NCBI GenBank assembly: GCA_021773135.1
Contig: JAJFKP010000062.1
Coordinates: 1-46,513 of the forward strand
Reading direction: 5' to 3'
Origin: Woeseiaceae bacterium
Lineage (GTDB): Bacteria; Pseudomonadota; Gammaproteobacteria; Steroidobacterales; Woeseiaceae
DNA length: 46,513 nt
Of the stretch, positions 42,230-45,459 are shown in pieces. The notes under the pieces were generated by a model. The model made no database searches. It was not told where the DNA came from and worked only from the letters and a program-made list of their open reading frames with translations. Position numbers and translations under genes: made by a program. How positions within the stretch are numbered: the first letter of the stretch is position 1; each line of letters starts with the position of its first letter.

Positions 42230-42649
42230 TTGAAACAATCGATTGCCCATATTGCCCTGGTGGTAAAGGACTATGACGAGGCGATAGCTTTCTACACGCA
42301 GAAGCTGCGTTTTGAACTGATTCAGGATATTTACCAGGCGGGACAGGATAAACGTTGGGTCATCGTTGCGCCGCCAAATTCGGCAGGTACTACGCTGCTT
42401 TTGGCACGCGCGTCGAATTCGGTACAGGAGAATCATATTGGCAATCAGGCCGGTGGCCGGGTATTTCTTTTTCTGAGTACGGACGATTTTTGGCGGGACT
42501 ATGAGCAGATGCGCGCAGCTGACATCAAATTTGTACGGCAGCCCAAGGAAGCCGAGTACGGGACGGTGGCAGTCTTTGAGGATCTGTATGGGAACCTGTG
42601 GGACCTCGTGGAATTCTCAAAAGCCGCTGCGGACCAACCGGGCCAGTGA
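42230..42649 (+). CDS. VOC-fold protein (glyoxalase/bleomycin resistance type)
   Basis: A 139-residue vicinal-oxygen-chelate protein with two beta-alpha-beta-beta-beta halves: SIAHIALVVKDYDEAIAFY at the N-terminus and VAVFEDLYGNLWDLVEF at the C-terminus, with His and Glu at metal-ligand positions. The TTG at 42230 is preceded by GGAGG (42218-42222) at seven bases, the clearest ribosome site in this region; an ATG at 42209 is less likely. It could be a dioxygenase, isomerase or resistance protein; the substrate is unknown. It lies inside the split tRNA cluster. Confidence 0.82.
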   Translation: MKQSIAHIALVVKDYDEAIAFYTQKLRFELIQDIYQAGQDKRWVIVAPPNSAGTTLLLARASNSVQENHIGNQAGGRVFLFLSTDDFWRDYEQMRAADIKFVRQPKEAEYGTVAVFEDLYGNLWDLVEFSKAAADQPGQ

Positions 42650-42743
42650 TAGCTAACGGCTATGGTGAGTGAGTAGTAATACGATTCATCGGCTCCTACG
42701 GCCACGGGTCACAATTCGGACTGGCGGCGTTATTTCCAACGAT

Positions 42744-42772
42744 TTGAACGATTTATAAGGTCTTTACATAAT
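42744..42772 (+). promoter_or_regulatory. Likely sigma70 promoter of the FHA-protein gene
   Basis: TTGAAC (42744-42749), a 17-bp spacer and CATAAT (42767-42772) lie in an AT-rich stretch about 90 bases before the ATG at 42864. Spacing is ideal and the hexamers match consensus at four and five of six positions. Confidence 0.5.
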
Positions 42773-42863
42773 CTGCAAGCTCCCCTAAACTCGGTTAGTC
42801 AGACATAACATTAACAAGAGCCTTTAGCATTCTGTTCATAAAAGGCCAATCGAGGTAGCGTCC

Positions 42864-44174
42864 ATGCATCACCAGCAGCCACATTCGACGGCAGCGTCGT
42901 TTTTGGAGGAGCTTGAGCCGGCAGAACCGTTCCACACTTTCCGTTCACGGCGAGCCCATGACGAACTAATGAGCGCGTTTACGGAAGGATTGCCAATGGC
43001 GATCGTAAACAGCGGCTGGTCGTACGGTTCAAATCAGCTAATAAAGTCATTCCTCGACGAGGTGGGCGACAACATTTTCCTCGTGCACATCACGGAATCG
43101 TGTGAGAACGACATTGATTGCATGCGTGAGCTTGTACGGCCAATTGGCGTCGATCCGGCTAAGCTTGATGTTGCGGACCTGGAAAAAGTGCTGGTCAGGT
43201 TCCTGGCGTTTCAGGAGAAGAGGCATCGACGCACCGTCATCATTCTCGAAGAAACGAAGGCCAACCGGGAATGGATTCGGCAAAGGGCCAAAAATCTGAT
43301 CGATCTTGAATCGAGAGAACATTTTGGCATGTTGGTGATACTTGCGCGACGCGCGAGATACAACGAGCTGCCTGATTTCCCGCTGCTTGATAACCTGAGT
43401 GCCGATGTCGGTGAATTTATTTCACTGACCCCTTTTACCTCCGGTGACACGCGGAAGTTTATTCGTTGGCGCATCGACGCCGACGATTCAGCTGATATCA
43501 GCAGAATCTTTGATTTCCAGGCCATTACGCTGATTCATGAGCTGGCCGAGGGCATGCCGGACGCCATTGATGCGCTTTGCTGTGCGTCGTTGGAACTGGC
43601 TGATAGCGAGGATACTGCGCCGGTATCAACGAGCGTGGTCATGCGCGTCAGTGAAGAACTCGGCATACAGCAATCTGGGGTCCGGTCGCATGTCGCACCA
43701 GCGGAGCCACTGGCAATGATACCGACCCTGAAAGTGCGCGAGGCACCACGCATCATTGTGCGCTACCAGGGCCGTAAAGTGCGTGAACTGAAGATTGATA
43801 AGCCGCGCATATCGATCGGCCGCGGGGTCGACAATGATTTGTGTATCAATAGCCCGTTTGTCAGCCGCCAGCACGCAGCGATCATTCGTGATGGGCCGGA
43901 AACGGCGATTATTGATCTCGACAGTCAAAACGGGACATCCGTGAATGGCGAAAGAATTCGGGCAAAAACGATGAGCGACCAGGATGAAATCAAGATTGGT
44001 CACCACCGCATCAAGTTCACGGATCCACGCGCGACGCCCAAGGTCTCACTGAATGGAGTGGCACGGAATCGACCTGTTCGGACCAGCTACCTGAAACCCG
44101 GATCGGGCGTGCTCACAAGTAGCAGAGTGAGTGCCGGCCTGCTGGCAGCCAGGAAGCCGCCAGAAACCGACTAG
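42864..44174 (+). CDS. ExeA-like pseudo-ATPase fused to a C-terminal FHA domain
   Basis: A 436-residue cytoplasmic protein with no signal or membrane segment. Residues about 20-245 follow the layout of ExeA/GspA-type AAA+ ATPases, but the key motifs have decayed. The Walker A position reads NSGWSYGSN (49-57) with no Lys, Walker B reads VIILEE (125-130), and the GxPR sensor-2 site reads GMPD (230-233). Residues about 298-387 form a convincing FHA domain: ISIGR (317-320), SRQHAAI (334-340), NGT (356-358) and NG (361-362), the phosphothreonine-binding residues. A basic, Ser/Gly-rich tail follows. The match to ExeA is by eye and needs a profile search. It has its own promoter-like sequence and no operon partner. 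Confidence 0.7.
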   Translation: MHHQQPHSTAASFLEELEPAEPFHTFRSRRAHDELMSAFTEGLPMAIVNSGWSYGSNQLIKSFLDEVGDNIFLVHITESCENDIDCMRELVRPIGVDPAKLDVADLEKVLVRFLAFQEKRHRRTVIILEETKANREWIRQRAKNLIDLESREHFGMLVILARRARYNELPDFPLLDNLSADVGEFISLTPFTSGDTRKFIRWRIDADDSADISRIFDFQAITLIHELAEGMPDAIDALCCASLELADSEDTAPVSTSVVMRVSEELGIQQSGVRSHVAPAEPLAMIPTLKVREAPRIIVRYQGRKVRELKIDKPRISIGRGVDNDLCINSPFVSRQHAAIIRDGPETAIIDLDSQNGTSVNGERIRAKTMSDQDEIKIGHHRIKFTDPRATPKVSLNGVARNRPVRTSYLKPGSGVLTSSRVSAGLLAARKPPETD

Positions 44175-44220
44175 CCCCTGAGCTGAAATTAGCACAGGCT
44201 GATCGGCGTAATCCGGGGTT

Positions 44221-45459
44221 TTAGTCGAGTATCGCCACGGGAATCAAGGCGCTGCCAATGCCATAAACGCCTTCCTGTTCCTCTGTCCAGGCGAGGATGA
44301 GGTCGTCATTACTAATCGCAATTTGCGGCACGCTGAATGCGAATACGTCCGTTGCAAGCTCAATCAGCAAGTCATCACTCATCCCACCTTGCGGCGAAAC
44401 ACGCTTGACCAGGAGATTTCCCCCTCCGGCAGAGTCGCTGCGCAGCCAGCTGACAACAAGATCACCGCCGGGGAGCAGCGCAGCTCCAACGTGTCCTGAG
44501 GGGCGATCAGTATCGACTGAAACCGGCGCCGAGAACGTGCGTCCGGCATCCGCCGACCATGCCGCTTTGACTTGCGGCACGTCGTTGGCTCCGGTAAACC
44601 ATACGGCGGCCACCCGATCGCCATTGGCCCGAATCACCGGACCGTTAACAGGGCAGGCATCGATTTCCCAGCCATCATTACTTATGGCAATCCCCGGTTG
44701 CCATTCTCCGAACTCGCGCCTCGAAACATAAATATCGCGAGTTTCCTCGGTTGTTCGATTGCGATAAATAGCGACCGGGCCGGTTGCAGTCACAGCAATG
44801 TCGGTCTGGCAGCAGTCGCAGACCAGATCATCCACAAGCGCCTCGCGTACCGGCAGGGTATCGGTTCCGAACGTGCCGGCGCGCAGCGCCATGCCGCTGG
44901 CACGTACGTCGTTCTCGTCGAATTCGTTGACCATTTTGCGTCCGTCCAGCCACAGCATCCCCACGCCACCGGAATCGGGAAAAAGGCTGACAAAGCCGTG
45001 CTCGGTGTCAGTGCCATCATTGTGCGGGATGAATGCTTCCGACCAGCTGGATCCTGAATCCATAGACAGCGCGGCGTGTATATCGTACGCATAGCCACCA
45101 GCCTCCCGTCTGACCAGCCAGTGCGACGCCCAGAGCGATCCAGAGATCGCGACGACCGATGGAAAATCGGCCCAATTGACAAACCAGTTATCCGCTTGCG
45201 CGACCAACCTGGGGCTGCTCCAGGTCCGCTCATCGAACTGGCTTACTTTGAGGGCGTGGCCGTTTCCGGCAGGCTCTATCCAGCTCAGCAAAATGGTGCC
45301 ATCAGGCCCGGTCGAGATATTCGGAGCCATGGCATCTTCTGCAGCGGCAACAGACAGGTGCACTGGCGCTGGCGCCACCGTTGGTTCTGGCGAGCAGGCG
45401 GCCAGCATGAAGGACACGCCAGATAACGCGAATAGAGGTAACAACCAGGTTTTGTTCAT
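44221..45459 (-). CDS. BNR/sialidase-like repeat lipoprotein with CxCC motif
   Basis: A 412-residue lipoprotein: signal peptide, lipobox LAAC with Cys22, then a Pro/Ala linker. The body is a six-bladed beta-propeller of sialidase type, with Asp boxes SMDSGSSW (132-139) and SADAGRTF (302-309). A cysteine cluster CDCC (214-217) and a single Cys at 269 (DACPVNGP), next to YRNRTTEETRDIYVS, are unusual for a sialidase and suggest metal or disulfide chemistry. I would not call it a sialidase: the catalytic Arg triad is not visible. It is probably anchored in the outer membrane facing the periplasm or outside. It is convergent with the FHA gene. Confidence 0.75.
   Translation of the reverse strand: MNKTWLLPLFALSGVSFMLAACSPEPTVAPAPVHLSVAAAEDAMAPNISTGPDGTILLSWIEPAGNGHALKVSQFDERTWSSPRLVAQADNWFVNWADFPSVVAISGSLWASHWLVRREAGGYAYDIHAALSMDSGSSWSEAFIPHNDGTDTEHGFVSLFPDSGGVGMLWLDGRKMVNEFDENDVRASGMALRAGTFGTDTLPVREALVDDLVCDCCQTDIAVTATGPVAIYRNRTTEETRDIYVSRREFGEWQPGIAISNDGWEIDACPVNGPVIRANGDRVAAVWFTGANDVPQVKAAWSADAGRTFSAPVSVDTDRPSGHVGAALLPGGDLVVSWLRSDSAGGGNLLVKRVSPQGGMSDDLLIELATDVFAFSVPQIAISNDDLILAWTEEQEGVYGIGSALIPVAILD

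Follow-up and report, generated by a model that had tools for sequence, protein, structure and literature searches.

Does an AAA+ domain that lacks the residues for gripping ATP, joined to an FHA domain with its own binding residues intact, mark a gene in decay or a fixed and selected state, and, if the latter, what might such a protein do? The question is raised by a protein encoded in a 46,513-nucleotide stretch of a Woeseiaceae genome (contig JAJFKP010000062.1 of assembly GCA_021773135.1; hereafter, the window), which the original prediction had described as a decayed ExeA-type AAA+ domain fused to an intact FHA domain. The features of the gene and its convergent neighbor are collected in Table 1. 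A GAGG motif lies a short way upstream of its ATG codon, and a promoter scan of positions 42600 to 44300 gave three matches, two of them upstream of the gene (42744 to 42791), against a shuffle mean of 1.3 (standard deviation, 1.2), and no weight was placed on it.

Table 1. Features of the AAA+-FHA gene and its convergent neighbor, in window coordinates
Feature	Coordinates	Strand	Basis or remark
AAA(pseudo)-FHA gene, member of clade C3	42864..44174	+	436 aa, ATG start, no internal stop
ExeA/XrtA-ATPase-like AAA+ region, residues 22-260	42927..43643	+	TIGR03015 match; AlphaFold2 fold; Foldseek
Degenerate P-loop SGWSYGSN, residues 50-57; Lys position is Ser56	43011..43034	+	Alignment
Walker B strand VIILEE, residues 125-130, ending in LEE at 128-130	43236..43253	+	Alignment
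Sensor-2 site GMPD, residues 230-233; Asp233 in place of Arg	43551..43562	+	Alignment
FHA domain, residues 300-386 (Pfam core, 316-379)	43761..44021	+	PF00498; structure match
Low-confidence basic tail, net charge +6	44022..44171	+	AlphaFold2 confidence; composition
Convergent neighbor, 412-aa ORF	44221..45459	-	Weak BNR_2 match; not part of the system

Profile searches, the AlphaFold2 model, and Foldseek searches agreed on the fusion, with the motifs at the places originally given. The NCBIfam profile TIGR03015 (XrtA/PEP-CTERM-associated ATPase) matched residues 49 to 266 (profile positions 49 to 266 of 269; E = 2e-10), and the score of 40.6 bits, set against a curated cutoff of 324.5, leaves the protein outside the family proper. 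In Pfam, with E values of up to 10, no AAA family was recovered, the only matches being FHA and the overlapping FHA-like Yop-YscD_cpl; likewise, searches for solved AAA relatives by sequence gave nothing better than a designed protein (E = 0.015, profile search) and MuB (E = 0.17, single-protein search). The AlphaFold2 model, built from an 11-row alignment, has a mean pLDDT of 73.7 and a pTM of 0.54, a moderate confidence that counts against the adaptor reading proposed below. Ten-residue means are mostly 79 to 94 across both domains, with a dip to 55 to 63 at residues 161 to 180, and values fall below 50 at residues 1 to 17, 270 to 292, and 391 to 436, consistent with flexible ends and a flexible linker. 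The predicted first domain has an alpha-beta core and lid like those of known AAA+ structures, recognized at moderate confidence, and matches MuB (1.6e-9), Cdc6/Orc1 (2.1e-8), and TnsC (1.6e-7) in Foldseek, with TM-scores of 0.39 to 0.45 over the whole query; the second resembles GarA and OdhI. Since the model has two domains with these separate likenesses, we regard the fusion of an ExeA/XrtA-type AAA+ domain to an FHA domain as confirmed.

The FHA half was also intact, as originally claimed: PF00498 matched it with an E value of 8.7e-18 and 65 bits (gathering score, 20.7). Its GR (319 and 320), S334, H337, N356-G-T, and N361-G motifs include R320, S334, H337, and N356, which we take to be the phosphothreonine-binding residues. 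These four are also kept across clade C3 (see below): among the rows not gapped at the position in question, R320 is found in 37 of 37, S334 in 36 of 36, H337 in 36 of 37, and N356 in 36 of 36; the C1 columns are not comparable, because some C1 rows have no FHA domain. GarA and OdhI are the nearest solved FHA domains by both sequence and fold (Foldseek, ~1e-9). The tail that follows carries an S[LV]NG motif in all four copies of the window's own subclade, while several of the remaining C3 copies have a short tail or none.

Homologs were gathered as 155 hits, of which 90 remained after removal of exact duplicates and 88 were aligned (L034 and L035, which have an FHA but no AAA domain, were left out); the aligned ORFs begin at the first start codon past a stop, several rows carry upstream extensions, and L028 was trimmed to its last 450 residues. 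In the 85-row tree, which omits L124, L012, and L093, C3 (37 rows, including the window protein) and C2 (10 rows) each form one side of a branch with 100/100 support, and the remaining 38 rows are termed C1, a set defined as neither C2 nor C3 that includes FHA-less ExeA-like rows and the long-branch L018 and L020 and is not one clade. The residue counts omit L124. An M-x-HQQ start is common to several C3 proteins (window positions 42864 to 42880; L004, L007, and L006).

The three substitutions that had been read from the window protein, a Walker A loop without Lys (YGSN), a Walker B strand ending in LEE, and a sensor-2 Arg replaced by Asp, are present as described, and the protein accordingly lacks both the Walker A pattern GxxxxGK[ST] and the sensor-2 Arg of functional AAA+ domains. 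The loss of the Lys is itself conserved, a result in favor of the original prediction by its own proposed check: the residue is retained in none of the 39 readable C3 copies, all of which fall to one 100/100 clade, as against 38 of 38 C1 and 10 of 10 C2 copies (48 of 48 non-C3 aligned sequences). As the tree was rooted at its midpoint, a single loss in C3, though the most economical interpretation, is not proven. The replacements are recurrent. At sensor 2, 37 of 39 C3 copies are acidic (34 Asp and 3 Glu, with 1 Arg and 1 His), where C1 has Arg (36/38) and C2 has Gly (10/10); Walker B position 129 is Glu in 33 of 39 C3, Asp in 37 of 38 C1, and Glu in 10 of 10 C2 copies; and position 130 is acidic in 28 of 39 C3 copies (17 Glu and 11 Asp), Glu in 33 of 38 C1 copies, and Asn in 9 of 10 C2 copies. 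Further, C3 has Asp at position 105 in 37 of 39 copies versus Glu in 27 of 38 in C1, and Gln117 in 39 of 39 versus 26 of 38. A parallel between Gln117 and Gln118 of clamp loaders was dropped, as Gln117 comes before Walker B and Gln118 after it; passages of PMC8121543 place Gln118 past a Walker B at residues 103 to 108. Ahead of the LTPF motif (residues 188 to 191 of the window protein), where intact relatives carry Arg at 181, 183, and 185, these are found in 6, 2, and 23 of the 39 C3 copies, respectively, and in the window protein at none of the three positions. The P-loop itself differs strongly among C3 subclades (SGWSYGSN, SEGRFGPV, and GSGYKFAL) and is Gly rich in some (e.g., GEGKSGAS). 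Judged from the alignment, the missing Lys is strong yet not absolute evidence against ATP binding: of the 39 C3 loops, 9 have a Lys at position 53 and 2 have one at position 57, so that by sequence residual phosphate binding is still possible, a point against the adaptor reading.

The C2 paralogs (e.g., L033) are likewise ExeA-FHA fusions with an altered catalytic site, but differ from C3 in keeping the P-loop Lys, in having mostly Asn at the second Walker B acid, and in having Gly in place of the sensor-2 Arg. Twenty C2-like copies, picked out of the lower-scoring matches of a C2-like search, all keep the Lys and have Asn (19) or Ser (1) at position 130, giving, over the 30 C2 and C2-like copies, 28 Asn, 1 Asp, and 1 Ser. 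These fusions are candidates for natural ATP-trap proteins. C2 and C2-like copies (L033/L040 at G000:C52, L052 to L054, and L169 to L188) often number more than one per genome.

In the genomes sampled, C3 is confined to the family. A profile of its AAA part recovered 40 loci in 39 of the 107 family genomes at scores of at least 177 bits, the next match scoring 123 bits. With at most seven candidates per genome scored, the best matches outside the family reached 121 bits in a class sample (369 genomes) and 128 bits in an order sample (396 genomes), and in a phylum sample (398 genomes) only the window's own genome matched at E = 1e-36. One of the 40 loci (L124, at G063:C119) seems split into two ORFs by a break or an assembly error, and contig ends truncate L006, L012, and L093. 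Of the 107 family genomes, 89 gave a C1 match (E = 1e-110) and 81 a C2-like match (E = 1e-90). The window genome has one intact C1 (L032), one C2 (L033), and two C3 copies, its three further fusions (contigs C4, C43, and C52) matching over most of their length. A search with the protein had found matches in 56 of 60 related genomes including its own; many of these cover the FHA part only, so the count gives no support for the AAA half, which rests instead on the TIGR03015 match, the C3 AAA profile search, the AlphaFold2 model, and Foldseek. The single protein as a query against genome contigs gave 33 pattern matches, none of them confirmed. Nine small genomes of genus g5 (G015, G025, G029, G031, G033, G035, and G060 to G062), with zero to two kinase matches each, have no C1, C2, or C3 match over the thresholds used.

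The dN/dS ratio of the AAA part was 0.09 to 0.39 in 12 C3 pairs, not all of them independent, and that of the FHA part was 0.06 to 0.34 in the 11 computable pairs. The window gene is too distant from its nearest relatives for dS, synonymous sites being near saturation (pS, 0.72 to 0.92), so pN/pS was used; in five comparisons within the subclade it was 0.36 to 0.49 (AAA) and 0.29 to 0.33 (FHA). These ratios indicate that the C3 AAA part is under purifying selection. The better-conserved half also flips, being the AAA domain in C1 and the FHA domain in C2 and usually in C3: identity is higher in the FHA half in 503 of 630 C3 and 45 of 45 C2 pairs, as opposed to 0 of 45 C1 pairs within the Woeseiaceae and 1 of 120 taken from other families (all-pairs counts that are not independent, with L006 also omitted and the 26 C1 rows a chosen, FHA-bearing part of the 38). 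Among sister pairs hand-chosen from the tree, the FHA half was better conserved in 1 of 9 (C1), 4 of 4 (C2), and 10 of 13 (C3), i.e., 1 of 9 versus 14 of 17 (Fisher P = 0.0008). The 127 C3 pairs in which it is not better conserved count against the adaptor reading.

Given purifying selection on C3 and its own replacement residues, which recur across the clade, "decayed" is the wrong word. That this copy is a functionless, decaying paralog of an intact ExeA-FHA gene, already disfavored, is very unlikely: intact homologs do exist, in its own genome too (L032 and L033), and one of the 40 C3 loci seems split, but the copy belongs to a single clade spread over 39 genomes, with the low AAA dN/dS ratios, recurrent replacements, and retained FHA residues given above. 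The refuting case named in the original prediction, intact homologs that reveal a mere decaying paralog, therefore applies only in part. An ExeA/XrtA-type AAA+ domain without the P-loop Lys, joined to an FHA domain whose phosphopeptide-binding residues are retained, is thus a clade-wide, selected state.

The gene neighborhood was rejected as a clue to function across C3, since the loci examined repeat neighbors only within subclades, and the differences between subclades count against the adaptor reading. In the window's subclade (window, G011, G001, and G007), the gene of the 412-aa protein adjoins C3 in three of the four genomes and is next but one in G007; the start of this protein resembles a lipoprotein signal by eye. 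A CDP-alcohol phosphatidyltransferase gene, identified by profile and read as pgsA, lies just upstream in three of four, the G007 contig being cut near the gene. As the original prediction had noted, no kinase is encoded nearby: of the 14 Pkinase matches in the window genome, none falls on the window contig. The genome also has 3 PP2C_2 and 9 FHA matches (including the window's own). FHA, PP2C, and Ser/Thr kinase matches stand side by side at G000:C20:89283-91267, and kinase and FHA matches lie close together in some other family genomes too. Pkinase matches occur in 103 of the 107 family genomes, so that the originally proposed check for a co-occurring kinase carries no information. C3 genomes at first seemed enriched in kinases (raw P = 0.0099, 107 genomes), but this was rejected because the signal vanished without the non-C3 genomes of <2.2 Mb (P = 0.32) and per Mb (P = 0.89); the lack of a relation between C3 carriage and kinase number when small genomes are left out also counts against the adaptor reading. 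A role in antiphage defense was likewise rejected: at an E value of 0.01, PADLOC models matched none of P0001, L031, and L033, and the 13 hits of the intact L032 to ATPase models were weak (best, 5.9e-6) and were taken to be generic.

Comparison with known systems places the protein near several of them and within none. C1 proteins such as L032 share the AAA-linker-FHA order of C3, but L032 scores 304 bits against TIGR03015, whereas scores of 41 and 60 bits were obtained for the two C3 copies examined, and the P-loop Lys is absent from C3, as is, in all copies but one, the sensor-2 Arg. MuB, TnsC, and Cdc6-Orc1, which resemble the predicted fold of the AAA part, bind nucleotide and DNA; the window protein has no ATP grip. 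GarA and OdhI share 28 to 34% identity in the FHA domain only and have no AAA part. The AAA region belongs to the same superfamily as ExeA/GspA of type II secretion, and a longer ExeA-like copy in the window genome (L036) scores 273 bits against TIGR03015. According to PMC4098917, ExeA has a single transmembrane segment and, in the periplasm, a peptidoglycan-binding domain; the window protein has an FHA domain instead and is not ExeA proper. Because neither a transmembrane-like stretch (highest mean hydropathy over 19 residues, 0.89) nor a peptidoglycan-binding domain was found in it, the ExeA functions that had been cited alongside it, peptidoglycan binding and secretin assembly, do not transfer.

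The reading that we prefer, and to which we give about even credence, is that of a soluble, nucleotide-independent pseudo-ATPase adaptor. The FHA domain would dock on a partner that one of the genome's Ser/Thr kinases has phosphorylated on threonine; the AAA fold, binding no ATP, would be a fixed protein-protein platform, possibly self-assembling; and phosphorylation of the partner, rather than ATP turnover, would govern assembly. We infer such a scaffold role for the window protein because the Lys loss is clade-wide, with recurrent replacements under purifying selection, because the FHA residues are kept and the FHA half is usually the better conserved, and because the protein has no transmembrane-like stretch and its own genome has Pkinase, PP2C_2, and FHA matches. 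FHA domains can also act without phosphothreonine, as in GarA and OdhI, which counts against this adaptor.

The latter observation is the core of a quite improbable alternative, in which the FHA domain binds enzymes directly and is switched by phosphorylation of the protein's own flexible ends, with the AAA part as a passive carrier. GarA and OdhI are indeed the nearest solved FHA domains, and the flexible ends contain Ser and Thr, but a passive carrier fits poorly with an AAA part on which purifying selection acts and which shows its own recurrent residues, and the C-terminal tail is not a constant feature of C3. Alternatively, C3 may join C1 and/or C2 in one AAA+ ring or filament, where the subunits would regulate or cap the assembly and the FHA domains would gather phosphorylated clients. 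We consider this possible but somewhat unlikely. C1, C2, and two C3 copies occur together in the window genome, and MuB, TnsC, and Orc1, which act as oligomers, are among the nearest folds of the AAA part. C1 accompanies C3 in 36 of 39 genomes (not G004, G007, or G120) and C2-like sequences in 34 of 39 (not G004, G009, G106, G117, or G120), but with C1 present in 89 of 107 genomes overall, such co-occurrence is hardly informative. The genes are, moreover, unlinked (in the window genome, C1 follows purE-purK, C2 lies by a gene run read from sizes and order as putative ccm, and C3 is elsewhere), and C3 has mostly lost Arg181 and Arg183, keeping Arg185 in 23 of 39, while the window protein has none of these candidate Arg fingers. 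It is improbable that the AAA fold binds nucleotide or another ligand independently of the Lys and acts as a ligand-gated switch for the FHA domain; the Gly-rich loops of some C3 copies and the acidic residue still found at position 130 in 28 of 39 fit such a reshaped pocket, but the loop varies widely among subclades, unlike a conserved ligand site.

The constituent parts are known families. No ExeA/AAA-FHA fusion or pseudo-ATPase form of it is named in the open-access PMC titles and abstract openings searched, which is weak evidence of absence, and the main texts of two Woeseiaceae genome papers (PMC7082342 and PMC12175321) do not mention FHA, forkhead, serine, kinase, or ATPase. For ExeA-FHA fusions that are pseudo-ATPases throughout a clade and coexist with intact paralogs, we found no precedent in the open-access PMC literature searched, which hints that this state may be new.

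Most of the AAA+ pseudo-ATPases known are subunits of complexes. In the bacterial clade C3, the loss of the ATP grip is fixed, the genes are selected, and the signaling domain is the better-kept half. We would tentatively suggest, while thinking it on balance doubtful, that the Woeseiaceae, which are common in marine sediments (PMC7082342), have FHA-bearing AAA+ proteins that form a set particular to their lineage and come in three fixed states, of which C1 would hydrolyze ATP, C2 may bind and not hydrolyze it, and C3 could not grip it; all would answer to the same class of Ser/Thr-kinase signal and would cooperate or compete, with phosphorylation setting the outcome. As intact and half-altered paralogs occur in the same genome as natural controls, the role of the AAA+ fold without ATP is directly testable here.
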